Virus record (IMG/VR): IMGVR_UViG_3300020283_000013
Coordinates: 1 to 33,904 of that record
Strand: one strand, 5' to 3'
DNA: 33,904 nucleotides
From: a virus
Below the pieces are notes generated by a model. It saw only the letters and a list, made by a program, of their open reading frames with translations, was not told the DNA's origin and ran no database searches. The stretch's first letter is position 1; each line of letters starts with the position of its first letter. The translations under genes were made by a program, and so were the position numbers. Shown here one piece after another: positions 15,872-33,436 of this stretch.

Positions 15872-18800
15872 TCATAATCCAAACACCCTTATTGCACCAG
15901 TTGATCTTAGACCTCTGAGTGAACTTTGTGAGTAGTTCTTTCTCTGAATAGTTGGGAAAGTAGTTAAACCACTATTAACTGTCAAACCAGTCACACCTAT
16001 TGAAATAGGATTATCTGATCTCGTAGCGTTAAATATTCTACCCCAACTAATAACCCCTAATTCAGTGCTTATTCCTGGTGCACTAGGATCGAAATTACCT
16101 GTTTGGGCGATTCCTAAAACTGATGATGAACTATTTGTATGAATGTTACAAGTAATCTCACCGTTAAACGCACCATCATCAGATACTGCATGGACTTTGT
16201 AAATATTATCAACAAATGTTGTTCCTATGGCAACTATTGATGAATCCTGACTGTCAACCGATGTTACAGCTGATCCAACTTTTGTATCTTTTATGAAAAC
16301 TGGATAACCAACAATGATTGGTTTACCTGATATCTGCTCGTCTGATCTAAAGAAGAACTTAAGTGCTAATGGATGACCGCCAGTACCAGTCGTTGTAGTA
16401 ATACCAGTAATAATTCCAGTAAATCCCTCTATATTACTAATCTCTGTAATTTTTTCAGTTTGAAATTCAGGTAAGTCAATTATTACTTGTGGAGGTGTGG
16501 TGCTTGTGTAACCCAATCCTTGATTTACTACATTAATTGCATCTATAGATCCATTATTAATAGTTGCTGTTGCAGTCGCTATGGTATATGCACCAACACT
16601 TCCATCTGATTGTATAAATGTACCAACTCCAGATACAGGTGCAGAAATTTTAACTTCTGCTGTGCCACTATAACCAGAACCAGCGTTAGTTATATCAAAT
16701 GATGTAACGGAACCTGCTGCAGATACGATTGCTGTAGCGGATGCACCAACGTTTATTTCACCAGAAGAAATTAAAGCATCAACACTATTATATGTTAAAT
16801 TATATCTATCTGCTAAAGGAATATGTGTTGTCTTTTCATAGAAGAAAGATCTAACATCATCTACAAAAATTCCATTTAAAGGTGTGCCATCATCACCTGA
16901 ATTTATTGTAAAGTCTCCAATAATTTTAGCAGTTGGATAAATTTGTGGTTCTAATATTTCTCTTGACTTATCTATTTTTTTACCATTTAAAATTATATCA
17001 ACTTTTTGTTTAGTCCATCTAACTGGTTTATCATTATTTTCATCAATACCCTGACCTGTGTAGATATCAGTTTCTACAAGTTTTGCTCCAAGTAATTCTT
17101 TTATAGTTCTTTCATTCCTTTGTGTAGTAGTGAATCCAACAGGGTGTTTAAACACTCTTAGTTCATCACCAACTTTGATTGTTTCTTGTATATCAGCAGT
17201 ATCAATATCTACACCATCTTGACCTTTGTAGAAGAAGATATCTACCTTAGCTTCTGGTCTAGGTGGTTCAATGAAATCAAATGTAGTTCCTCCTTGGAAT
17301 TGATAAGCTTCACCAGGTTTTTGAAGTACACCATTAACAAATATCAATAGAACTGCATTCATATCAATTAGTTGAGATCTTGAATTATTCAAATCTTTTT
17401 CAAAACTTAAAAGTTGTCCGTTGAAGAATAACGGGAATCTCTTACTTATTCCGTCTTGTAAATTCTTTATGGAATCAATAAAATCTATTTCACCGAACTG
17501 TTGTGCTGAAAATCTATCAGTAAAGACTTCAAGTACCTCTAATTCAAATTCTTGAATTGGTTGACTTAAATGTGCTGCAGTAACTAGACCAACTGGTTTA
17601 AATTTATCACCAAGTTTAAATGAATGTCCTGATCTAGCAACAGAGAATTTAGAAATTTCAAAGGTAGTAGAACCAATACCTACAGTTGTGGAAGCAGCAC
17701 TGACCTCAACATCTAGTAATAAATTAGAACCAGTAGCAGTTGTTAAACCAATTCCTCGTCTAGAAACACCAATTACAGGTATATTATCGTAATTTGGTTC
17801 TGGTATTATAATTTCTGGATTTACATAACTTGTACCAGCAGAAACAATTGTAAATGCAAGTGTTCCACCAACACCAACAGAAGCAGTTACAACAGCACCG
17901 CTACCCGCACCTCCACCAACACCTGCGTTTAATGTTATTGTGTTAATAGTAGTTGCACCAATACCAGTTACAATACCTGCAATAGGATCTGAATTTGGGA
18001 AACTAGTTTTTGATACTGCTCTTGGATATGGGTGATCTGAGAAGAAATTATCCTTAGAACACTTAAATACTAATCCACCAGTGTCAATGCCAACTGAATC
18101 ACTTGTTGTGAACGTATGATTTGGAATTGTTAAAATTAATTGACCTGTATGAGAAGTGTATACTGCGTTAGTGGCTGTAAATGAATCACCAGCAAAACTT
18201 CCTTTCTTAATCGAACCGATACCAGAACTTACAAATCTATGTTCGTATGCTTGATCTGTAACTCCAATTGCAACTGAACCACCACGATATCCAGAACCAA
18301 ATGTAAGATCTTCAAAGAACTCGAATGCATGTCCACCACCTTGATATGTGTGTGGAATAGTGCTTGCACCTGCCTGAACTTCAAATGTTCTTTCAGATAC
18401 AATACCTACTAAGAATAATGGTCTCTCGTGGTCTTGGAAGATTGTTGTTGTTACTCCTACATATCCACCACCACCAATTGTTTTAACAGCGTCAGCATCA
18501 GCAGAATCAAATGTGTGAACATACTGGTCACTTGGAGCAGACGCACCAACATTTATTTTAAATGTATTTGTTGTAGCATCACTTACTGTTAGGTATTGGT
18601 TCGCAGCAGGGTCAGTTGCACGAGGATAACAATGAACTGTTGCATTACTATCTTTATCACAAGTGAAGCAAATACCACCAGTTTTAAGAATTACTGCATC
18701 ACCATTTACTAAACCGTGGTTTGCGATTGTTAATACTAAATCACCATTAGCGGGATCGTAAGTTGCATTGGTTACTGTGCCAACTACAGTTTTCGGACAT

Positions 18801-21800
18801 ACAAATTCTAAACCCTTAAGTTTAACTGTATTAGGTCTCTCAAGTGCAAATCCATGAACCTTATCTGTTGTAACTGTAATGATACCTGTAATATTATCAT
18901 ACGCTGCAGTTTGAATGCCAAGATTAAATCCAGATGATGTTGCTATACCAACGACACTTGTTATCCCACCAGTGGCATCTTTAAATGCTTTTACTTTTGC
19001 ACCTTGTAGTGGAGCATATCCCAATCCTGGTGTTGAACCCAATGAAACAATTATTCCACCTCTTGGAACTTGATTCTGATTTATATCAAATTCAGAAACC
19101 ATTTTTTCACCATTTTCCGAAGTGATACCAGTAAACTCTACTGTAGAGATACCAGCAGTTGAATCAGATATAAATTCATAATTATTACCAGCATTATTAA
19201 CTGTCAGTGGAGTCTGGAATATACCATTAATGAATACAACTCCGTTTCCAACACCAACACCTGAATGTGTATTTGCTCCACCGACAGTGAGTGTGTAAGT
19301 CTTGCCGATACCTGTGAAGTTGTCAGATATATCATCAAACAACATATTAGTTGTGTAATCACTTCTTAAGAATGTTCTACCACTAAATTCTGCTTTATCA
19401 AAAGGTTGATTAGTTTCATCTCTTCTGCTACGTGTATTTCCTTTTGGAGGGTCTGAGAAGAATACTTTACTATCAACTATATTAAATGCACCTCTATGCA
19501 ATCTTGCTACATCATTTGCAGTATGTGTTGTCTGAGCTATTCCTAATTGCCCTCTCTCAACCTTAACAACTGGTAAAGTAGCAATACCAGCTGCAACAGA
19601 AGCTGACTCATTTATAATACCTGTGGGAGTGCTTGAAAAACCAACCTCAAGAACTTTTACAAATTCATCATTCAATTTCAAAAATTCACCTGCTTTTATA
19701 GAGCTAATACCACTTAATACAAATTGTGATAATCCAATTCCAACAGTGCTATTATAAGTAAATCCATCAAATACACCTAATGTGTGAGAAATAGATGTAA
19801 ATGTAATTGGTTGTTGAACTACACCATCTAATCCAATCAGAGTTTTAGTTAACTGTTTTGTCATAGCTAACTTATGTGAGTTTCCACTGCCTAGTGAACC
19901 ACTTACTCCAGTAAATGTTACAGCAACACCAGTTGTTATAAATTCAGGTCTTGTATATAATTCAAAATTGTCTTCATCTATAACCTTTGCAAAAACAGTG
20001 CTAGGAAGAATGTCTGTTACGATACCAGAGATATTTTCTGTGGCACCAATTGAAACTGCAGTTCCTGCTACACCTATGAATGTTGAACCAGGTGTATATG
20101 TAAGTTCCTCATTAGTGTTGAAGAAATGACTTGGTAAAGTTATAACATTTGTAATTGTACTAATTGTTCCTACATTAGATGGATTAAATGTTTTGGAATA
20201 TATTGGAACACCATTATTTGTTAATAAGAACTCTTTCTTATCAGCTCTTAAACCACTAGCACCATCATAAGTTGATAAGAATAATTTTTGATCTACAGTG
20301 CCATAAATTAAATTAGGTGGGTTATTACTAAAATCACTATCAGTGTATAATACTTCATTGTATGATTGTACTTCTATTAAAGAATCAAATTCTGCATCTG
20401 GATAAAATCTTAAGTTAATATCATTACCAACTATCTCACCACCAAATGTACCAATACCTGTAGTTGAACCAGCAGATACGAATGGATATTGAATTGTGAG
20501 TATATCATCTAAATCTCTAATTGATATAATTTGATGAACAGCAGATGTCTCACCACAAGAAACTCTTACAAGAGATTTTACTGTACTATCTAAATTTTTA
20601 TTAATTGTATTGTATGTTATTGGATTTGTTGTTCCAGTTGCATACTTCGATTCTAATCTGGCACTTCTTTCTGCACCAACTGGTTGACCCGAAACTAAAA
20701 AGCGATATGTTCCTATACCAGATTCTGTTGAACCTAAACCAACTACATTAGCTCTAACCTCTAATGGATTAATCCTATCATTTTCTATTTGTAATTTTAC
20801 TAAATTATTTTCAACCTTTGCAGTAATGATACCTACAATACTACTACTTAATCCAGATGTTGTATCTACATATGTCTCTGCGATTGTTGTATCAGTCCCA
20901 TCAAAATCAACTATAACCTCACTATAATTAATTTCCTTTGATATAGAGTCCTGAACAAATATATTTGCATAAAGTGAATTAAAATCATAGTCTGGAACCT
21001 CTAATATCGTAGAAGTTACCACACCAACAGTTGTTGTTCCAACTCCTGTATTATGACCCGTCAAATCGATACTTCCAATAGCATTTGTTCCAATACCTGC
21101 TAAATCTGTATTGAATTCAATTTTTAATATTTTTATATTGTGGTCTCTCGAAAATTTTTCAACTGGTTCAAATAATAAATTTTTTGTACCAGTTGTTGTA
21201 ATTTCAGTATTGAAATCGCCTAATTTTTGATTTGTAAAATCGGTTGATTTTTCAAGAATAAATGCATCTTTCTCAGTTGTTAATGTAACTAATTCTGTAA
21301 ATTGAGTATCAACTGTATCTGGATCAATTATTTGAATTAAATAACGTCCTATTTCATCTGTTAAAGGTTCGATGGTTGTAGTGAAACTTTCAAACCCTTC
21401 ACTAGAAAAAGTATCACTAATATCATCATGAAGTAATACTCTATTAGTTTTACATCTAGTAAAGTCAGTCAGTGTTTTATTTTTAAGAGTGAGAAATTTA
21501 GAATTATCATTCCTTGTAGCAAAATCTCTTACTAAATCAAAATTATTAATTGCATCTACTCTTTGTTTATCCTCTATTTCAAGAACATTTGCAACATCTA
21601 AAACAATAGATTGATTTGATTCTGCAGTTTCTCCAATACCAACTGGAATTTTAGATAATACTGAGGTATCAGCAAAATTTTTCAATCCAGATGGATGAGT
21701 AAGACGATTTACGGGATTTACAAAATCATTCCATCCGATTGGACTTTTAATGGTATATGAAAGATTTTGATAATAATCATTATCAGGTATTACTTGATAA

Positions 21801-24800
21801 TCCTCATTTAATTTACCAATATCATCTAACCAACCATATTCTTGTCTGTTTGAAAAATCAGTTTTGAATTTAGCTTGATTATCATTTAAGGATGTAATTT
21901 CAGCTGATACACCACTTAATCGACCTACAATTCTATCACCAACCTTTAATTTAGATTTACCATCTATTTTAATATAATCATTTCTAACCTCACTTATTTT
22001 TAAATCAGTTACTTCATTTCCGATTATAAGTGTTTCATTTAATTCAAATACACCTCTTTTTATAACAGGTTCGATGACTGGTAAATTTTTTCTGTTTATT
22101 AAATTAGCATAACCTGACTGGAAAGTTTTAGCGATACCAGGATTTGTAGTAACACCCGCTAAACTAAATTGTAATATAGACTGAGTTCCAGCAGAATAAT
22201 CTGTAACTTCAAAGAATTGGAAATTGTAATCCTCTGAATTGTATCCTTCCCCTTCGACTATAGTAGATGAAACACTGCCACCCTGTGTTGCTCCTATACC
22301 ACTCTCTCCTACCCTTTGTATACCTTCAATGAAGATTTCATCACCTACTGCAAATGGTTGCTCGTCAAATCCATTTATAGGGGTTTCTAGGAAACAAGTA
22401 ACGACTCCAGAATTACTAGTTATTACAGAATTAATACCTACACCATTTGAGTTGTTTATTGCAACTACTCTATGTACTACTGAATCCAATCCATATATTG
22501 GTGATATTACTTTAACTTCCGATACCTTTTGATTTGGTGCTATTGCTTGTAGAGAAACTTCATCTACAACAGTATTTGAAACGGGATTGAATAAGATCAA
22601 ATCAGGAGCATTTGTATATTCTGATCCACCACTTAATACATCAACTGATTCAATTACATCAAGATTATCAATACCAACAACAGAGGGAATAAATGCCTCT
22701 GGGCTCAAAGTTTTATCAGAAGAATATTCATAACCAATATCTACGATTCTAACTTTTTTAATTCTTCCAATGTCTTTAGAATATGCTTTTAGATTTGCAT
22801 CAGATCCATTTGTACTATTGACTTTTAAAAATTCAGGTAGTTTTTTATAATTAAAACCTCTAGATATAATATTAAAATTCTTTATAGAACCTTCAACTGT
22901 GGTTGCTTCGGTGGAGTATTCTAGTTTTTCACAATCACTATTTGTATATGATAAAAATTCAGGGAATCTGGGAGAGATATCAAAAGTATCATCAGTAACG
23001 TTGAATATTTCATATTCACCATTATATACACTATCAACAAATTTTATTTCAGAATAATTTGATACTTCTGTATCAGCAGTGCTTATAAACCCACCTTTTG
23101 TTAAACCATAGTATAATGTATTAGGTGCAGAATTAGAATATTTAACTTTTAAAGTTGCTCCTGTTGGATCAGTATTATTTGTTCCTATTCCAATTGTACC
23201 TGCAACACCAACATTAAAATTAGTTGAGTCTTGAGAACTAATATATTCATTTGTTAATTCTTTGTCATAAAATAATTTAAAATCAAAACCTGCTAAAGTT
23301 GTACTTGATAATCCAAAACCAAGAACTGAATTTTTAACTACTTCTATCTTGGGGTTAATTAATGCTATTGACTGATTTCCACCAGTGTTAGATACAATGT
23401 CTACTACTCTTACAGGATTTGAATTAATATCAATAATTGTCTCTGCAAGTGAGAATTTGCTCCTACTTATTTTATTAATAAAGTAAGTTCCAGTTGTTAA
23501 ACCAGTAGCTGAACCATCATAAAATATTTTATCACCAGTCTCAAATCCATGATTGGTAATATTAATATGATTAGTTTCAACATTTGAAGCAGTAAATGAT
23601 ATTGGATTTACTAATAATTTTTCATAATTTGAATTATAAATGACTGATACAGTCGTAGTAGTTCCAATCCCTACATTCAGATTTGGTATTACTTCAAGAT
23701 TAATTATATCCTTCTCTACAAGATTATGTGTAGTTGTATTTGCAGCAGATATATTTGTAGATACTCTTGTTGTAATTTGATCTATCGTACCAGTTACCTG
23801 AGTGTGAGTTGGTTCAAAGAAGTAAAGAGATGATGAAATACCAGAGATACTACCTCTTGAGAAGAAGAATAATCCATCGCTAGTGCTACCTATACCCACT
23901 CTTGTGGTTACAAGACCTATATTATCTGGACCTTTGTCAATAACATATACTTTAGTTGAATTTTGTCCTGTAAATGGTAATTTAAATTGTTGTTGTAATG
24001 GATTAGTTGATACATCAAATCTATTTGCTCCATTTCGTTTGTTTAAAATAAGTTCTTGACCTGTGCTAAACGGATGATTTGGAATTCGTATTGTTCTTAT
24101 GGGAATTGAAACTGTTGTTTTTAAATCACCAATAAATGTATCAACATCTATCGCACCACCAACAGTAGTTCCTACTCCAACTGATTGAGCTGGATTAAAA
24201 TAAACTAACTCATTTAATTGTGATTCAAATCTAGTTGTTTTTACAGGTAATGTTATACTATTATTTAAAATATCGACATTACTTCCAGCAGTATGAGCTG
24301 CTCCAACATTTCTAAAAACTCTAATAACGTTATTTCCTTCAAAAACGTTTAAAACTCTGACTATTTCTTCATTTGTTGCATCTCCTGAAGCAATTCTTAT
24401 AGAAGAACCTATTGCTACCGTGGGTATACTTGATACAGTTATATCTTCAATGAGTCCTGCTGAAGCTGATTGCATTGTTGATAAAAGTGTAATTCTAGAT
24501 GTGCTTACACCTACTTTAAATGTGTCTGTTAAATTTACTATTGAAGTGCTTAAACCTGATATTGATACACAGGTTTGATCCTTTATATCCAACAATGGGA
24601 AGAAGCTAGCCTTAACTCGATTTTTATCTAACCACTCAAAAACTGCTCCTTCATAAGAAGATATTGATGTGTCTATTCTTGATATTCCAATACCTACTAT
24701 TTCACTAACTTCTGCTCTAAATCCAGTTCCATTAGTCTCTTCATCATTAAATTCAGTTAAATCTCCAACTTTGTAATTTTGCCCTGAATTTAATATTGTA

Positions 24801-27800
24801 ATTCCATCAACACTACCCTTGGTAACAGATTCAATTTTTGAAATTTGTCTTATTTCTTCATATGACTCTACAATAAAATCACTACCAGCAAATTTTTCAT
24901 CAACAGCATAAGGGAATGTATTTCTTCTTATATCTGTGCTATTGAAATCAAAATCATGATTTAGTATTTTATTTTCTGTAATTAGTGGAGAACGATAAGT
25001 ATTTCCTATAAAATAGGGATATTCTCCCTCAAGTTTATTAGTTTGAGTCCCTAATCCAACAGTTGTAAAGTATGCATATACTCCATTAGGAAATTCTGGT
25101 GTTTTTCCAAATCTTCCGTTATGGATATCCAAATCACCTGACTCGTCAAATACATAATCTTCAACAAAGAATCCACCAGCGTATCCGTTTGGGCGATTAT
25201 TTACACTATTTGGATTTAAAATATATGATGACTCTATTATCTTTAGAGGAGAGTTTATATCATCTGGATCTGAATAACCAAAAGGACCATAAATTGGATT
25301 ACCATCATAAGCCCAACCTATAATTGGAGAGTGTCCTGTAATTTGATTAAATTCACCATTAGCAAGTAGACTGAAAGTTTCTTCAAATCTACTAGCTATT
25401 TCTTGCGAATAACCTACGATACTAAATCTTAAAGTGTCATTTTTTGTTGATAAGAAGGAATCACCAAACCTACTAGCATTATTTAAAGTTAAAGATCTAA
25501 CCCTTGCATTGAATTTAGCATTTTTACCTCTTGAAAATGCCCTTACCTCAGTAGTTGCTGAATCATATCCTATACCAGTGTTTAGAACTTTTGCTTGTAT
25601 TACTTCACCATTTTCAATAATAGGTCTTATAACAGCACCTCTTCCTACTCCAGTCGATGTTACCTGAATGTCAGGTGCTGAATTATACTCACTACCTCTA
25701 TTAGTGACTGCAACACTTTCAATTCTACCGTTTACGATGATAGGTTTGAATTCAGCATTTTTTCCATTCTCAACTAAAACATTAGGTGTAACTTCTTTAT
25801 CAAGTATTTCAGAACCATAATTTGTTCCTTCTTCATACAAATATCCACCTAAAATTTTACCAGTAACAATTGGTGTGATGACTAAATCTCCTGTTACAGT
25901 TGAACCATATGAAACATTAATGTTAACTTTAATTTTTGGATATTCAAATATTTGTAGTCCTTGTCCTACTGATTCAAAATTTACATATTTACCTCTATCA
26001 TAATCCTCTGTGGACGTTGCACCCACACCTGCATTTGCCAACTGAAAGGAATCATCAGTTAATTTTCTGACAATATATGATGTTGTTGTAGATAAACCTT
26101 GTATTGCTGTTGTCTCTGCTGAATATTCAATAATCTCTCCACTATTAAATCCATGATTCTTGAAATTGATTGTGTTTAATGATGTGGATATTCCAGATGT
26201 TTTAACTCTTAATTTGCGGTGAGTATATCCAGATCCCTGCTCTATTACTTTAACTGCAACTAATGTATTTCTTCTTTCAGTTCTAAATCTATGAATACCA
26301 CTTGCAGTGGTGTCTGATGAAAGTCCAACTGTATTGATACCTGTTGCACCAAATAATGCGTCCGCTGCTGTATTGAATAACCTAACAGTTGATGTATTTA
26401 CAGATCTAATATAATAAGGATCTCCATCAGAAAGTGTCCCTGAAGACGTATTTGTTGATTCGTATGCAGTTCCTATACCTAAAGGTGCGTTCCCATTTGA
26501 ATTATAGTAAATGAGTTGTCCATTTTCTAAATTATGTCTAGTTGTAAAGGTAATTGTTTCATCTTGAATGTCAACTCCACCGTTAAAAAATATATCTCTA
26601 CTATCAAACTCTAAAAATCTATTTCTTTCACCTAAAACAGGTTTTAATATACATCCAGAACCATTACCTCCAGTTAACGAAATGTTTGAAATATCTTTGA
26701 TATCAAAATCTTGTGGGTCAACAAGACAATCTACCACTTTACCTTGAATTATTGGTTCTATTTTTGCATCAATACCACCTGCTAAGTTTGACTCAACATT
26801 TATTACTGGTGGATTTATTACGTCATAACCATCACCTTCGTTTATTAAATCAACAGATGTGAGAGGACCATAAAAAATTTGATTGTCTGAAATTGGAGAA
26901 CGAATTTGCACTCCATTTATTAACATACCAATATCATTAAATGGTGTTTCTTGTTCTGATGGAACAACTAAATTTTGACTTAAAGGAAATTTTCTTAATA
27001 TTTTATCAGGTTCTAATGAACGACTTGCATGTTTTTTTAAAATAAATTTATGAGTATCAGAGGTTGTTGTACCAATACCAACTTGCACCGTAGATGCAGT
27101 GCCTATTTGAGAAATGGATTCATATAATTTTATTTTTGTTATTTTAGAATTGGAGTTAGGGATTACTGGATCTATGTAATATGTCCTACCATTTTCTAAT
27201 CCTGACAATGGCACATCATCTGTTTCATAAATTATTTCATCACCCTGAATAAATTTAATATCTCTTTGTTTTATTGGAAAATTTATAAAACTATACTTTT
27301 CAGTAAAAATATTATATCCATCAAATTTAGTAGTATCACTACCATCCGAAAAAGTTTCTTCTACAACATTAGTTGTAATTGGATAACTTGGAAGTGAATT
27401 AGAGGCAACATATCCAAATTTGTTATCATCAACGTATACAGATAACGTGTCTGCTATAATATTCCCATTACCCTCTTTGAGAGGTACACCTGTGCTTGAT
27501 GCTTTATTATCAGATCTACGAATATCATATAATTGGTTTGGAAGTTGAGTAAAATTTGATATATTTCCTGCGGTGAAGGAGTGTGTAGCTGAGGTTATAG
27601 ATTTTACATCACCAGATCCTACTCTTGCATTCTCATTTCTCTTAAGAATTTCAAAATTATCACCCTCCTTTAAATATGCTTTGTCAATCGGTGTCTGTAA
27701 TTGAAATTCAGCACTTGAAATGCCAACTTGAAATCTTGTACGAGTATTATAAATCCAAGAATTAGCAAAAATTTGTTTATAATTTTCACCATCATTTTCT

Positions 27801-29095
27801 ATTTTTTCACCTACATTTTTTACAAATATATTTTCATCTTCATTTACTAAGTTAACATCTGTTACTGGAATCAAATCTGATATTACACCTGTGATTCTTA
27901 AATCTACTCTTTTAGATAAATCTCCATTTTCAAATCCAAATATTGTTTCATCGTCTCTAATATCATCACCAGTATTAATACCAACGTTTATGCCACTACA
28001 TCCAAAGAACTGATTTATTGATTTTGAAGTGTAATTTATTGATGTATTTTTTCCACTAATAAGAGTGCCTGTTGCACCAAATCCAACAGTTGAATCTACA
28101 TCTATTATCGTTCCACCTGCGTGTATTCCATTAATTAATTTTGTTTTGCCAGGCACTTTAAATATGCCTTGAATTAAATCTCTATCACTAAAACCTACAA
28201 ATAAAGCAATCTTATAATAATTCCTTCCCTCTCTTTTTATAATTTCAACTTCTGATACTGATGCACTAGTTGAAGTATCAGTTGATTTAAATATTGTCTG
28301 ACCTGTTAAGTTTTGAGGTTCACCACTACCAATAACATCAGCTACAATGACCTCACGACGTATGAATTCAGCACCAGATGGTTTAATTAAATTACCTTCT
28401 AAGTCAATAACTTTTGCATCAACTCCATATAATACTTTAAATAATATATTTACTGATTCTTCAATACCTTTAGATTGATAGAATGAACGAGAAAATTTTA
28501 TGAAGTTTCCTATATCTAAATCACTGGTAAAATCATTATTTTCTAAACCAGGTAAAAATGTTTTTTTAAGTTTTTTAAAAAACTCTTGTAAAAACAGAAC
28601 AGATAAATTTGTTAATGTTGATCCGTTAGAGTGTGATGCTGCTGATGTTTCATTAAATTTTAAATGCTCTTGATTTATATTAAGGAGTGAGGAGGAGATA
28701 CCTACATTATATCCTGTTACACCACTAAAACCACGAATACATCCAGTAAATGTAGTGGATGTTATTCCTGTATATGATATAATTTCATCATCAATTTTAA
28801 ATAGACCATACTCATTTGGAAATCCTTTTGTACTAGGTACAGTAATTGTATCATCAGTAGATGAAATATCTGATGAAATAGTTGTTTTACCAACAATGAC
28901 TTCGGGGACTAAATTATCTGGTTTTAAATACTGATCGAAATTAGTTATTAAATCAGAAGGACCTCCTTGAAATTCTTGTGAAATATAATATTGCTTTAAA
29001 AACTCTGTTGCATTAGGAAAATCAGATACCACAAACTCTGGTAACTGATTTTCAATAATTTTATTGACTTGTATTCTTTTGTCAAATTGTGACAT
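15872..29095 (-). CDS. 7: Giant baseplate wedge protein, gp7 homologue with YHYH domain
   Basis: The 4407-aa protein sits between gp6 and gp8, the place of T4 gp7 (1032 aa). Near its N-terminus, residues about 165-275 match the late part of T4 gp7 by eye: RSFYQSKGIEESVNILFKVL is RSYDFYSTKGIEASYKFLFKVL in T4, and LTGQTIFKSTDTSTSASVSE is LVGQTIYTATGRCNVTYIER. The rest is modular and beta-rich. It has a YHYH-type domain (about 1250-1370: GHSPIIGWAYDGNPIYGP, NGVYAYFTT, YPYFIGNTYRS), several GxGY repeats, copies of an 'ExxxYTG...RG...HxxG' module, two CxKDxxxxxHxYPRA repeats, FINGVLQxP modules near the C-terminus, and many VG[IV]G[TS]T turns. The full frame is open without frameshift. It starts 3 bases after the gp6 stop with an AGAGGAAA site. 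It probably forms an enlarged baseplate wedge or periphery that carries surface modules. Confidence 0.87.
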   Translation of the reverse strand: MSQFDKRIQVNKIIENQLPEFVVSDFPNATEFLKQYYISQEFQGGPSDLITNFDQYLKPDNLVPEVIVGKTTISSDISSTDDTITVPSTKGFPNEYGLFKIDDEIISYTGITSTTFTGCIRGFSGVTGYNVGISSSLLNINQEHLKFNETSAASHSNGSTLTNLSVLFLQEFFKKLKKTFLPGLENNDFTSDLDIGNFIKFSRSFYQSKGIEESVNILFKVLYGVDAKVIDLEGNLIKPSGAEFIRREVIVADVIGSGEPQNLTGQTIFKSTDTSTSASVSEVEIIKREGRNYYKIALFVGFSDRDLIQGIFKVPGKTKLINGIHAGGTIIDVDSTVGFGATGTLISGKNTSINYTSKSINQFFGCSGINVGINTGDDIRDDETIFGFENGDLSKRVDLRITGVISDLIPVTDVNLVNEDENIFVKNVGEKIENDGENYKQIFANSWIYNTRTRFQVGISSAEFQLQTPIDKAYLKEGDNFEILKRNENARVGSGDVKSITSATHSFTAGNISNFTQLPNQLYDIRRSDNKASSTGVPLKEGNGNIIADTLSVYVDDNKFGYVASNSLPSYPITTNVVEETFSDGSDTTKFDGYNIFTEKYSFINFPIKQRDIKFIQGDEIIYETDDVPLSGLENGRTYYIDPVIPNSNSKITKIKLYESISQIGTASTVQVGIGTTTSDTHKFILKKHASRSLEPDKILRKFPLSQNLVVPSEQETPFNDIGMLINGVQIRSPISDNQIFYGPLTSVDLINEGDGYDVINPPVINVESNLAGGIDAKIEPIIQGKVVDCLVDPQDFDIKDISNISLTGGNGSGCILKPVLGERNRFLEFDSRDIFFNGGVDIQDETITFTTRHNLENGQLIYYNSNGNAPLGIGTAYESTNTSSGTLSDGDPYYIRSVNTSTVRLFNTAADALFGATGINTVGLSSDTTASGIHRFRTERRNTLVAVKVIEQGSGYTHRKLRVKTSGISTSLNTINFKNHGFNSGEIIEYSAETTAIQGLSTTTSYIVRKLTDDSFQLANAGVGATSTEDYDRGKYVNFESVGQGLQIFEYPKIKVNINVSYGSTVTGDLVITPIVTGKILGGYLYEEGTNYGSEILDKEVTPNVLVENGKNAEFKPIIVNGRIESVAVTNRGSEYNSAPDIQVTSTGVGRGAVIRPIIENGEVIQAKVLNTGIGYDSATTEVRAFSRGKNAKFNARVRSLTLNNASRFGDSFLSTKNDTLRFSIVGYSQEIASRFEETFSLLANGEFNQITGHSPIIGWAYDGNPIYGPFGYSDPDDINSPLKIIESSYILNPNSVNNRPNGYAGGFFVEDYVFDESGDLDIHNGRFGKTPEFPNGVYAYFTTVGLGTQTNKLEGEYPYFIGNTYRSPLITENKILNHDFDFNSTDIRRNTFPYAVDEKFAGSDFIVESYEEIRQISKIESVTKGSVDGITILNSGQNYKVGDLTEFNDEETNGTGFRAEVSEIVGIGISRIDTSISSYEGAVFEWLDKNRVKASFFPLLDIKDQTCVSISGLSTSIVNLTDTFKVGVSTSRITLLSTMQSASAGLIEDITVSSIPTVAIGSSIRIASGDATNEEIVRVLNVFEGNNVIRVFRNVGAAHTAGSNVDILNNSITLPVKTTRFESQLNELVYFNPAQSVGVGTTVGGAIDVDTFIGDLKTTVSIPIRTIRIPNHPFSTGQELILNKRNGANRFDVSTNPLQQQFKLPFTGQNSTKVYVIDKGPDNIGLVTTRVGIGSTSDGLFFFSRGSISGISSSLYFFEPTHTQVTGTIDQITTRVSTNISAANTTTHNLVEKDIINLEVIPNLNVGIGTTTTVSVIYNSNYEKLLVNPISFTASNVETNHINITNHGFETGDKIFYDGSATGLTTGTYFINKISRSKFSLAETIIDINSNPVRVVDIVSNTGGNQSIALINPKIEVVKNSVLGFGLSSTTLAGFDFKLFYDKELTNEYISSQDSTNFNVGVAGTIGIGTNNTDPTGATLKVKYSNSAPNTLYYGLTKGGFISTADTEVSNYSEIKFVDSVYNGEYEIFNVTDDTFDISPRFPEFLSYTNSDCEKLEYSTEATTVEGSIKNFNIISRGFNYKKLPEFLKVNSTNGSDANLKAYSKDIGRIKKVRIVDIGYEYSSDKTLSPEAFIPSVVGIDNLDVIESVDVLSGGSEYTNAPDLILFNPVSNTVVDEVSLQAIAPNQKVSEVKVISPIYGLDSVVHRVVAINNSNGVGINSVITSNSGVVTCFLETPINGFDEQPFAVGDEIFIEGIQRVGESGIGATQGGSVSSTIVEGEGYNSEDYNFQFFEVTDYSAGTQSILQFSLAGVTTNPGIAKTFQSGYANLINRKNLPVIEPVIKRGVFELNETLIIGNEVTDLKISEVRNDYIKIDGKSKLKVGDRIVGRLSGVSAEITSLNDNQAKFKTDFSNRQEYGWLDDIGKLNEDYQVIPDNDYYQNLSYTIKSPIGWNDFVNPVNRLTHPSGLKNFADTSVLSKIPVGIGETAESNQSIVLDVANVLEIEDKQRVDAINNFDLVRDFATRNDNSKFLTLKNKTLTDFTRCKTNRVLLHDDISDTFSSEGFESFTTTIEPLTDEIGRYLIQIIDPDTVDTQFTELVTLTTEKDAFILEKSTDFTNQKLGDFNTEITTTGTKNLLFEPVEKFSRDHNIKILKIEFNTDLAGIGTNAIGSIDLTGHNTGVGTTTVGVVTSTILEVPDYDFNSLYANIFVQDSISKEINYSEVIVDFDGTDTTIAETYVDTTSGLSSSIVGIITAKVENNLVKLQIENDRINPLEVRANVVGLGSTESGIGTYRFLVSGQPVGAERSARLESKYATGTTNPITYNTINKNLDSTVKSLVRVSCGETSAVHQIISIRDLDDILTIQYPFVSAGSTTGIGTFGGEIVGNDINLRFYPDAEFDSLIEVQSYNEVLYTDSDFSNNPPNLIYGTVDQKLFLSTYDGASGLRADKKEFLLTNNGVPIYSKTFNPSNVGTISTITNVITLPSHFFNTNEELTYTPGSTFIGVAGTAVSIGATENISGIVTDILPSTVFAKVIDEDNFELYTRPEFITTGVAVTFTGVSGSLGSGNSHKLAMTKQLTKTLIGLDGVVQQPITFTSISHTLGVFDGFTYNSTVGIGLSQFVLSGISSIKAGEFLKLNDEFVKVLEVGFSSTPTGIINESASVAAGIATLPVVKVERGQLGIAQTTHTANDVARLHRGAFNIVDSKVFFSDPPKGNTRSRRDETNQPFDKAEFSGRTFLRSDYTTNMLFDDISDNFTGIGKTYTLTVGGANTHSGVGVGNGVVFINGIFQTPLTVNNAGNNYEFISDSTAGISTVEFTGITSENGEKMVSEFDINQNQVPRGGIIVSLGSTPGLGYAPLQGAKVKAFKDATGGITSVVGIATSSGFNLGIQTAAYDNITGIITVTTDKVHGFALERPNTVKLKGLEFVCPKTVVGTVTNATYDPANGDLVLTIANHGLVNGDAVILKTGGICFTCDKDSNATVHCYPRATDPAANQYLTVSDATTNTFKINVGASAPSDQYVHTFDSADADAVKTIGGGGYVGVTTTIFQDHERPLFLVGIVSERTFEVQAGASTIPHTYQGGGHAFEFFEDLTFGSGYRGGSVAIGVTDQAYEHRFVSSGIGSIKKGSFAGDSFTATNAVYTSHTGQLILTIPNHTFTTSDSVGIDTGGLVFKCSKDNFFSDHPYPRAVSKTSFPNSDPIAGIVTGIGATTINTITLNAGVGGGAGSGAVVTASVGVGGTLAFTIVSAGTSYVNPEIIIPEPNYDNIPVIGVSRRGIGLTTATGSNLLLDVEVSAASTTVGIGSTTFEISKFSVARSGHSFKLGDKFKPVGLVTAAHLSQPIQEFELEVLEVFTDRFSAQQFGEIDFIDSIKNLQDGISKRFPLFFNGQLLSFEKDLNNSRSQLIDMNAVLLIFVNGVLQKPGEAYQFQGGTTFDFIEPPRPEAKVDIFFYKGQDGVDIDTADIQETIKVGDELRVFKHPVGFTTTQRNERTIKELLGAKLVETDIYTGQGIDENNDKPVRWTKQKVDIILNGKKIDKSREILEPQIYPTAKIIGDFTINSGDDGTPLNGIFVDDVRSFFYEKTTHIPLADRYNLTYNSVDALISSGEINVGASATAIVSAAGSVTSFDITNAGSGYSGTAEVKISAPVSGVGTFIQSDGSVGAYTIATATATINNGSIDAINVVNQGLGYTSTTPPQVIIDLPEFQTEKITEISNIEGFTGIITGITTTTGTGGHPLALKFFFRSDEQISGKPIIVGYPVFIKDTKVGSAVTSVDSQDSSIVAIGTTFVDNIYKVHAVSDDGAFNGEITCNIHTNSSSSVLGIAQTGNFDPSAPGISTELGVISWGRIFNATRSDNPISIGVTGLTVNSGLTTFPTIQRKNYSQSSLRGLRSTGAIRVFGL
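18000..18775 (-). repeat. Two copies of a CxKD...YPRA repeat inside giant gp7
   Basis: Two segments about 600 bases apart follow the same order: NATYDPANGDLVLTIANHGL then GGICFTCDKDSNATVHCYPR (upstream copy, about 18615-18775), and NAVYTSHTGQLILTIPNHTF then GGLVFKCSKDNFFSDHPYPR (about 18005-18170). Conserved positions are the Asn-Ala-x-Tyr opening, L-x-L-T-I, a Cys-x-Lys-Asp, a His and the YPRA ending. Boundaries are approximate. Confidence 0.75.
24985..25340 (-). other. YHYH-type domain inside giant gp7
   Basis: The translated segments GHSPIIGWAYDGNPIYGP, LDIHNGRFGKTPEFPNGVYA, YFTT and YPYFIGNTYRSP occur in the order and spacing of the YHYH domain family. The name-giving YHYH residues are replaced by YAYF here, so a histidine-based metal or catalytic site is unlikely to be intact. 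Confidence 0.7.
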
Positions 29096-31046: not shown

Positions 31047-31448
31047 TTATCTCGTTGGTTCTAAAATAAAGGAGAATGACTGTGTTGGAGCATTAATTCC
31101 CACGATATCAAAAAAGACTTTAACATCAAAATTATTATTGTCTGGGTCTGACTGTGCCTCAACCTGAACATTAGCAACTCTTGGTTCATAATTTTCAATT
31201 GTTTCTACAATTTGATCTTGTATTGTAACAATAGTGCCACGACTATAATTCTGAAATAAAGAACTTCTTATTTCAGTGCCGATTAAAGATTCAAAAAATC
31301 TTTCTGTTGGCATCGTTTCAACCAAATTTCTTACAGATCTTACAATTGCCCTCTCATTCGCAAGCACAGGAAGGTCTTTCGTCACTGGATGAGGTGAAAA
31401 AGACAGACTTATATCCTTAAATGATCTTGATTTGCGTAAAATCGACAT
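31047..31448 (-). CDS. 25: Baseplate wedge subunit gp25
   Basis: gp25 is a small wedge protein close to the tail sheath start; the family (GPW_gp25) is widespread in contractile tails. The 133-aa product has the usual length (T4 gp25 is 132 aa). Visible are the NERAIVRSVRNLVETMPTER segment, FFESLIGTEIRSSLFQNYS, and the C-terminal VKVFFDIVGINAPTQSFSFI region typical of the family. It is the first gene after a late promoter (TATAAATA 18 bases before the ATG) and starts the baseplate operon. The leader has no strong Shine-Dalgarno. Confidence 0.92.
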   Translation of the reverse strand: MSILRKSRSFKDISLSFSPHPVTKDLPVLANERAIVRSVRNLVETMPTERFFESLIGTEIRSSLFQNYSRGTIVTIQDQIVETIENYEPRVANVQVEAQSDPDNNNFDVKVFFDIVGINAPTQSFSFILEPTR

Positions 31449-31476: not shown

Positions 31477-31827
31477 CTATCTCGCATAATCTTTCATCAC
31501 ATAATCATTACTATCAAAATATTCAAGTACCCAATAAGCAACAGAACGAGGATTTTTTGCTCCACAAGTAAAAATATCGAACGCAACGCAGTTTTTTTCT
31601 GGCCAAGAGTGGCATGAGAGGTGACTTTCACCTAAAGTTACGGTGCAAGTCACTCCATAAGGTTCAAATTGATGTGTGTAGGTGTTTAAAACCTCTAAAC
31701 CTTCAGTTTTACAAGCACTAACGCATATTTTTTCGATTTTATCCCTATCATTTAGTTTTTCAAAGGGTACATTATACACTTCAACAAGTAAATGTGTACC
31801 CATATGGGCATTTTTTACCTGTTTCAT
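31477..31827 (-). CDS. speD: S-adenosylmethionine decarboxylase proenzyme, SpeD
   Basis: SpeD decarboxylates S-adenosylmethionine to supply aminopropyl groups for spermidine. The enzyme self-cleaves to make a pyruvoyl cofactor. The 116-aa product is of the short prokaryotic class 1b type. The cleavage motif ESHLSCHSWPE gives Glu67-Ser68 as the cut site, with His73 and Cys88 (FTCG) at the +5 and +20 spacing seen between Ser63, His68 and Cys83 of the Thermotoga enzyme. All key residues are present, so it should be able to process itself. Phage SpeD homologues are known from T4-like cyanophages. Some members of the wider family have changed substrate to arginine or ornithine, which cannot be excluded here. 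It overlaps the upstream gene by 4 bases (ATGA). A start at Met9 is also possible. Confidence 0.93.
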   Translation of the reverse strand: MKQVKNAHMGTHLLVEVYNVPFEKLNDRDKIEKICVSACKTEGLEVLNTYTHQFEPYGVTCTVTLGESHLSCHSWPEKNCVAFDIFTCGAKNPRSVAYWVLEYFDSNDYVMKDYAR

Positions 31828-32513
31828 CCTAATTCTGGTTCAAATGGTTTCCTTTCTTCAGTATTTTTCCTTTCTTTTGCTGTTTTCCAGAAATAATTCT
31901 CTTCTGAACCGAGTCCCATTCGGTCATGACCGTTCTCTACTTGATAATATACTGTTGAAACCTTAAAATCGGGAACTTTAGGTGTTTCTGGAGTGATACT
32001 ATTGTCATAAATCCTCATTCTGTTGTTAGGATAGAGACAATATTGCCCATTATCAAGTTCAATGATGTTATGAGACTTGTGTTCAGCAGGAATTTCACTG
32101 GTTGAGTAGTCAATTGCGTCAACATCAGAGTGATAATTATCTAAAGTGCAGACATATGTGCCAGTTTGAGTTCCAAAATCTCTTGTATAGACCTCATAAT
32201 GCATTGATCCAATAAATTGCTTCTGAACTGCAACGATTCCATAGTCCATACAGTTCCAAAATTGCAAATTATGTAGTGTCATATCAGGATCAGGTGTCTT
32301 TGGTTGAGACAAAAATGCTGAAATTGGCAATTTATCAAACATTGCAGCATATTCTGGTAAATATGTTTCAAAATAGAAGGCACGACCTGGCATACTCTTT
32401 GCACTTACCCAAACACCTTTCTCAAATTCACCATGACCACTCTTATGGTCGGTTAAGTATTCTTTTCTTACCCATACATCAATTGCAGGTAAGTTTGTAA
32501 TTAATGTGCTCAT
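31824..32513 (-). CDS. Hypothetical protein upstream of speD (229 aa)
   Basis: I do not recognise the family. The 229-aa protein is soluble by composition, with many aromatic residues (FWNCMDYGIVAV, FYFETYLPEY) and a central segment NIIELDNGQYCLYPNNRMRI then YDNSITPETP. The C-terminus is charged (WKTAKERKNTEERKPFEPEL). There is no signal peptide, transmembrane helix or obvious catalytic motif. It lies 2 bases after the SET gene stop and overlaps speD by 4 bases, so it is co-translated with both. From memory, proteins with this central segment occur in T4-like cyanophages, but I cannot name a function. A link with polyamine metabolism is only a guess from position. Confidence 0.8.
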   Translation of the reverse strand: MSTLITNLPAIDVWVRKEYLTDHKSGHGEFEKGVWVSAKSMPGRAFYFETYLPEYAAMFDKLPISAFLSQPKTPDPDMTLHNLQFWNCMDYGIVAVQKQFIGSMHYEVYTRDFGTQTGTYVCTLDNYHSDVDAIDYSTSEIPAEHKSHNIIELDNGQYCLYPNNRMRIYDNSITPETPKVPDFKVSTVYYQVENGHDRMGLGSEENYFWKTAKERKNTEERKPFEPELG

Positions 32514-32515
32514 AA

Positions 32516-32956
32516 TTAATTTTCGTTAAGTTCCCAATCTCTTTCATCGGGTCGATAATATGATGTAAGTTCTTCACCTTCTTGAATATCTCGTATCGCA
32601 AAGAACTCGTGTGTTTTTCGATCCCAAAATAAATTTGGAGTATGCGAATGATTTATATAATATTCAGTATACAGCATATTCAACGGAACGTCCAGTATGT
32701 ATGACTCAGTTTCTGGATTATACATACACATTCTTTCTACAAACTGCTCAATCTTAGTACCAACAAGTTTTTCAACCTTTTCCCAATGAATTTCATGATT
32801 TGGAAAATGATTCCAGTATTTTTTATCATAAAGAATTTCATCTTGTTTGATATCTCTCAAAGCAAAAACACCAACTCCTGCTCCCTCAATTAAACTTGGT
32901 TGTAAGCAGGTTTTGATGTCTTGTATCGATGAAATCATATCATCGTAACTATACAT
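32516..32956 (-). CDS. SET-domain protein, putative lysine methyltransferase
   Basis: SET-domain proteins transfer a methyl group from S-adenosylmethionine to lysine side chains. Counting from the Met at 32956, the 146-aa product has GAGVGVFAL (25-33), the S-adenosylmethionine-binding NHSHTPN (102-108, matching NHSxxPN), and the closing GEELTSYY (127-134, usually GEELTxDY, so Asp is Tyr here). There is no post-SET cysteine cluster, and the domain is close to the minimum size. I chose this start because GGGAG lies 10 bases upstream and it begins just after the 110-aa stop. The longer frame to 33049 would overlap that membrane gene by 89 bases. The target is unknown; host or phage ribosomal, DNA-binding or virion proteins are all possible. 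Confidence 0.82.
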   Translation of the reverse strand: MYSYDDMISSIQDIKTCLQPSLIEGAGVGVFALRDIKQDEILYDKKYWNHFPNHEIHWEKVEKLVGTKIEQFVERMCMYNPETESYILDVPLNMLYTEYYINHSHTPNLFWDRKTHEFFAIRDIQEGEELTSYYRPDERDWELNEN

Positions 32957-32960
32957 TACA

Positions 32961-33293
32961 TTACTGCTCCCACTTACCTTTTGTTTCCCATTCGATATAT
33001 TTCTTATTTCTCTCTTCCATATAATCCCAGAACCATTGGTTTGGGTCATCTGCGTAACTCACTTTTGGTTTTTTCTCTGTTTTTATATATTCAAGATTCT
33101 TCGATATCTCATCACGAATAATCCAATCGATATGTTTTGTGACCTGACCGAGTAACTGCTCCTCAAAAAGAGGACTCTTCATATATGCAAATACCAAGAG
33201 TCCACTTCCAAAAGTTATGTTTGAAATAATCAGAGCAGTGACAGCAATCCATCTTGTTCTAATTCGACTTGCTGTTCTCTCCAACTCATTCAT
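32961..33293 (-). CDS. Single-pass membrane protein (110 aa)
   Basis: The 110-aa protein has one clear hydrophobic segment, residues about 15-38 (WIAVTALIISNITFGSGLLV), preceded by basic residues (RTASRIRTR). By the positive-inside rule the short N-terminus is in the cytoplasm and the larger C-terminal domain (Lys/Glu/Trp-rich, DDPNQWFWDYMEERNKKYI) would be on the far side of the membrane. No lipobox or enzyme motif is seen. It overlaps the 48-aa gene as ATGA, with AGAGG at proper spacing, and ends just before the SET gene. A holin role is not excluded, but a single segment with a long tail is not diagnostic. Confidence 0.78.
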   Translation of the reverse strand: MNELERTASRIRTRWIAVTALIISNITFGSGLLVFAYMKSPLFEEQLLGQVTKHIDWIIRDEISKNLEYIKTEKKPKVSYADDPNQWFWDYMEERNKKYIEWETKGKWEQ

Positions 33294-33436
33294 CTTCCCT
33301 GACCTCTGTATCTTTTACGAGCCGAGTTACGGGACGTAGCGGAGTATTTCGAGTGTTTTCCCCGCCCTTGACGAGTTTTTTTGGGTCTTGACTCAGTAAT
33401 ATAAGCACTACCCATCATTCCTGTTTTTCTAGCCAT
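33290..33436 (-). CDS. Very basic 48-aa conserved-type protein
   Basis: The frame runs from the ATG at 33434-33436 to a TGA overlapping the next start (ATGA). The product starts MARKTGMMGSAYITESRPKK and ends SARKRYRGQGR, with Lys/Arg scattered throughout and almost no acidic residues. A ribosome binding site GAGGAA lies 10 bases upstream, inside the end of the preceding gene. It resembles small basic hypothetical proteins that I recall from T4-like cyanophages ('MARK.G..GSAY', 'SARKRYRGQG'), so it is likely a real gene. Nucleic acid binding is plausible from charge only. Confidence 0.78.
   Translation of the reverse strand: MARKTGMMGSAYITESRPKKTRQGRGKHSKYSATSRNSARKRYRGQGR

Follow-up and report, generated by a model that had tools for sequence, protein, structure and literature searches.

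A SET-domain gene carried as optional cargo by T4-like cyanophages probably encodes a stand-alone methyltransferase

A gene on a 33.9-kb virus fragment (IMG/VR record IMGVR_UViG_3300020283_000013, 33,904 nucleotides, referred to as a whole as the window) probably encodes a stand-alone class V (SET) methyltransferase dependent on S-adenosylmethionine (SAM), which T4-like cyanophages carry as optional cargo and which would likely methylate lysines of proteins in late infection. A phage SET-domain methyltransferase in an accessory slot of the late region had already been proposed in a sequence-only reading of this DNA, and the proposal is well supported by Pfam matches, family alignments, gene context and a fold model. 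We infer that the enzyme is catalytically active, that lysine is its acceptor and that it acts late.

Results and Discussion

Searches with Pfam and PHROG profiles identified T4-like neck, sheath and baseplate genes in the window. The closest annotated DNA relatives, 198 records, are mostly Synechococcus phages (169 records) and Prochlorococcus phages (16 records), and the window is therefore a fragment of a T4-like cyanophage. Judged from these phage relatives, the host would be a cyanobacterium. Within the baseplate region, one open reading frame of 4407 aa takes up 15872-29095 (-), and its counterpart at the same place is labeled 'YHYH domain-containing protein' in phage Sf-CH1b and 'baseplate wedge initiator' in RN05-S.

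The SET open reading frame occupies exactly positions 32516-32956 (-), stop codon included, and encodes 146 aa from an ATG start that is backed by homologues aligning from the first residue. A profile search against the SET family, which the sequence-only reading had named as a check, gave a match to PF00856 far beyond chance (7.3e-13, 49.3 bits versus a cut-off of 22.4, profile positions 1-104 of 105). The same protein had no significant PHROG cover, and the NCBIfam search gave no match. The motifs GAGVGVF (residues 25-31), NHSHTPN (102-108) and GEELTSYY (127-134) are present, and the first two are intact as had been claimed. The claim that only the final Asp of the GEELTxDY motif is altered also holds, the end of the motif reading S-Y-Y versus x-D-Y in many SET domains, with the catalytic-type tyrosine, Tyr134, retained. 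Solved enzymes also differ from one another at the Asp position. Human KMT5B reads GEEISCYYG, and because it has Tyr-Tyr at the same place, the change from Asp to Tyr is not alarming. The domain is minimal, having neither the post-SET Cys cluster nor a separate substrate-recognition domain.

The small size of the domain, the replaced Asp and the missing post-SET region would fit a catalytically dead fold kept for binding, for example of SAM or of a protein. We consider this very improbable, since the residues of the SAM site and of the Tyr site are conserved across 41 phage sequences and the Tyr-Tyr pair is natural in KMT5B. Invariant in this alignment are T16, L18, P20, S21, G27, G29, F31, I36, D39, Y99, Y100, N102, H103, S104 and N108, while conservation is 90% or higher at P107, Y133 and Y134 and in a P-x-E-R-x-W tail.

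With moderate confidence (mean pLDDT 70, pTM 0.57), the AF2 model predicts that the protein has the SET fold. In a Foldseek search of the PDB, SET domains are found all through the top list (best E 1e-06). VIA-align gave similar Z scores for PRC2/EZH2 (10.3), vSET (10.1), SMYD3 (10.0), SETD7 (9.9) and MLL, and the model superimposes on vSET over 70 residues at 1.7 A. At Z of 8 or higher there were 162 of 680 chains, and among the matches listed all are SET proteins. Among viral models, the Foldseek matches were SET proteins, some from giant viruses and others from uncultured Caudovirales; the latter (UniProt A0A6J5L8Y2, A0A6J5P3I3, A0A6J5SSB1 and A0A6J5PTS6) are phage-encoded and have the SET fold, with E down to 4e-07 at about 15-23% identity to the window protein. 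The profile of the phage family had its nearest solved structures among KMT2-type lysine methyltransferases (KMT2C, 5.7e-06). KMT5B and KMT2C share the fold and the motifs of the phage protein, but they are multi-domain chromatin enzymes.

The SET gene of the window belongs to a known, already annotated kind of phage protein. Seven Synechococcus phage records of the isolate collection have a relative at 35-37% identity; the annotation reads SET lysine methyltransferase for one of these and methyltransferase for two. Synechococcus phages Sf-CH1b, RN05-S, RB11-B, S-B05, S-B43 and SynMITS9220M01 have members of the same family, aligned over 86-95% of the query; Sf-CH1b (PV340850) is the record labeled 'SET domain-containing protein-lysine N-methyltransferase', and RN05-S and RB11-B are those labeled 'methyltransferase'. 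At about 122-124 aa, the proteins of the isolates are shorter than the window type, in which the N-terminal and middle segments are longer. A scan of IMG/VR for close relatives gave nine loci, and an alignment-based scan gave at least 160 stretches that encode SET relatives, 80 of which were retained for analysis. PF00856 was matched by each of the 10 proteins in the first family alignment. With relatives in isolates and in at least 160 IMG/VR stretches, and with similar phage proteins annotated as SET proteins, the gene is not a lone oddity. Its implied rarity in phages was overstated, SET genes being already annotated in Caudovirales.

Over 15 pairs, the dN/dS ratio of the SET gene is 0.05-0.26 (about 0.09 versus the nearest relative), and the gene is therefore under purifying selection. 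Distant relatives were found in a 636-kb uncultured phage and on a Priestia plasmid, and among 14 control genomes only Methanosarcina acetivorans had a SET match. In 84,980 genomes the best cellular matches were scattered MAGs (Patescibacteria, Magasanikbacteria and others; top two 32-34%). No cyanobacterial title was present among the closest of these, as searched with two pattern seeds that may miss divergent homologues, and these matches lend no support to an origin of the gene from the host.

In nearly all loci that have the SET gene, the order is a glycosyltransferase-like gene, in some cases small ORFs, phrog_516, in some cases another ORF, SET, phrog_3704, in some cases speD or other genes, gp25 and gp6. 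In the three isolate Synechococcus phage records that were inspected, SET likewise has phrog_516 and phrog_3704 on its two sides. In the window, phrog_516 (33290-33436 (-), 48 aa, rich in Lys and Arg, PHROG 1.1e-21) forms the upstream flank of the slot, and phrog_3704 (31824-32513 (-), 229 aa, PHROG 1.4e-112) the downstream flank. phrog_516 was found in 443 phage records; the C-terminal half is strongly conserved, and a function label is absent. From two scans for phrog_3704, 103 of 156 loci have phrog_516 and phrog_3704 and no SET gene; prevalence figures of this kind are unreliable, the loci having been sampled by similarity to phages with SET. In many of the loci without SET the two flanking genes abut, with only a stop codon or a few bases between them, and SET is thus a cargo gene inserted between two conserved genes.

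When SET presence was mapped onto a phrog_3704 tree (96 non-redundant proteins), it required six changes, three of which are forced by well-supported branches, compared with about 31 for shuffled labels. The SET gene is optional cargo, gained and lost at one fixed slot with at least six changes of presence. A 110-aa ORF (32961-33293 (-)), whose N-terminal part includes a hydrophobic stretch, lies between phrog_516 and SET in the window. Homologues of this ORF are also present at the same place in two loci without SET (L113 and L114), so it is a separate cargo and the slot accepts more than one cargo gene.

The gene for SAM decarboxylase, speD (31477-31827 (-); Pfam 1.5e-31, NCBIfam TIGR03330), had been put forward as a meaningful neighbor of SET. 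It is in the same gene run, upstream of the gp25 baseplate wedge gene that anchors the context (31047-31448 (-); Pfam GPW_gp25, phrog_261), but phrog_3704 lies between it and SET. Across 93 non-redundant loci, speD was present in 12 of 41 with SET versus 18 of 52 without (Fisher p=0.66). The proposed link thus finds no support, and a coupling of the two genes by a shared SAM economy was rejected for lack of association.

The neighbor that does accompany SET is phrog_3704, which was alongside it in 81 of the 83 SET loci examined. In the window its start follows the SET stop codon by 2 nt, and the two coding regions overlap in many relatives. Such constancy may suggest that the two are a dedicated pair in which the phrog_3704 protein serves the enzyme as target or guide, and one of the two exceptions is L024, which is truncated by the end of its contig. 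The order of the pair is reversed in three contigs (L049, L055 and L056), and in two of these, read in detail, it is still together, away from the usual baseplate slot and beside nrdA/nrdB-like genes. This hints that the two genes travel together, but it could be a single event, and in the usual slot the two genes may simply have been inherited side by side. Against a dedicated pair, phrog_3704 is common without SET (the 103 loci above), so it does not need SET; the other exception, L023, has SET with no phrog_3704 in view; and phrog_3704 lysines do not vary with the presence of SET. In the tree-based comparison of its lysine columns with SET presence no signal was found, the independent changes being too few. 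On balance we regard a dedicated pair as unlikely; were a methylated protein its product, it would fall under the favored reading as a special case.

At L023:1957-2364 (+), outside the usual slot, the SET relative has as neighbors a 199-aa ORF and a gene that is clamp-like (gp45-like). At L049:3286-4345 (+), ribonucleotide-reductase-like genes enclose the reversed phrog_3704 and SET genes, and an ORF upstream of these appears to be homing-endonuclease-like.

The labels of phrog_3704 differ by record (PurM, ferredoxin, transcriptional regulator, virion structural protein) and look like annotation errors passed on between records for a protein that is conserved in cyanophages. It had no Pfam or NCBIfam match, and an identity as a true PurM or ferredoxin was rejected for want of such support. 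The phrog_3704 model (pLDDT 60) has a weak likeness to tandem Tudor barrels (UHRF1, SETDB1, 53BP1), but at Foldseek E 0.02, rmsd above 13 and best Z 6.5 this is within chance for barrel folds, and a tandem Tudor reader was rejected. That SET and phrog_3704 form a phage methyl-writer system with a dedicated partner, possibly a reader of methyl-lysine, is extremely unlikely.

Among SET enzymes, most of those characterized methylate lysines of proteins, and this is the likeliest activity predicted for the phage enzyme. At least one bacterial SET-fold enzyme, BurB of Burkholderia thailandensis, is a methionine S-methyltransferase of 172 aa that acts on free methionine (PMC12542666). The phage protein could likewise be a small-molecule methyltransferase, acting on methionine or another metabolite as the product of an auxiliary metabolic gene and not as a protein modifier; metabolic genes are common cargo of cyanophages. 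The C-terminal motif region of BurB is similar to that of the phage protein and, compared at equal lengths (fragment residues 7-43 to chain residues 91-127), matches it about as well as KMT5B does (E 0.23 vs 0.28). BurB is longer and a tetramer, and its whole-protein similarity to the phage protein is not significant (E 0.95). The best profile-level matches are protein lysine methyltransferases, with BurB absent at E<=0.01, no other step of S-methylmethionine or DMSP metabolism was recognized among the identified neighbors, and speD is not linked to SET. We regard a BurB-type function as unlikely.

For the favored protein lysine methyltransferase, SAM would bind where the GxGxG strand and the NHSxxPN pseudoknot make up a pocket, as in other SET enzymes. 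The substrate lysine would enter from the face opposite SAM, and Tyr134 may help to line it up for direct methyl transfer. The role would be to methylate one or more lysines on a protein made or hijacked in late infection. The lysines of phrog_516 are equally conserved with and without SET, with no change tied to its presence, which gives no support to phrog_516 as the substrate.

Another virus-encoded SET domain of minimal size is vSET of Paramecium bursaria chlorella virus 1 (PBCV-1). To our knowledge, cyanobacteria are without nucleosomal histones, so the target of the phage enzyme cannot equal that of vSET. The latter methylates K27 of histone H3 of its eukaryotic host (PMC4023394). Bacterial proteins that are modulated by lysine methylation include Synechocystis pilin and EF-Tu (PMC4023394).

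Concluding remarks

Among the papers searched, neither a study of cyanophage SET-domain proteins nor one that pairs a SET domain with an auxiliary metabolic gene was found; the functional work on viral SET enzymes that we met concerns viruses of eukaryotes. Given its conservation, the selection on it and its repeated gain or loss at a single site, the cyanophage gene is probably important in some infections. The contrast between presence and absence, together with culturable Synechococcus phages that carry SET, makes its function directly testable. Should the activity be BurB-like, the gene would count as a new metabolic gene, connected to organosulfur chemistry. If the enzyme methylates a host protein, lysine methylation would be a means by which the phage takes over its host.
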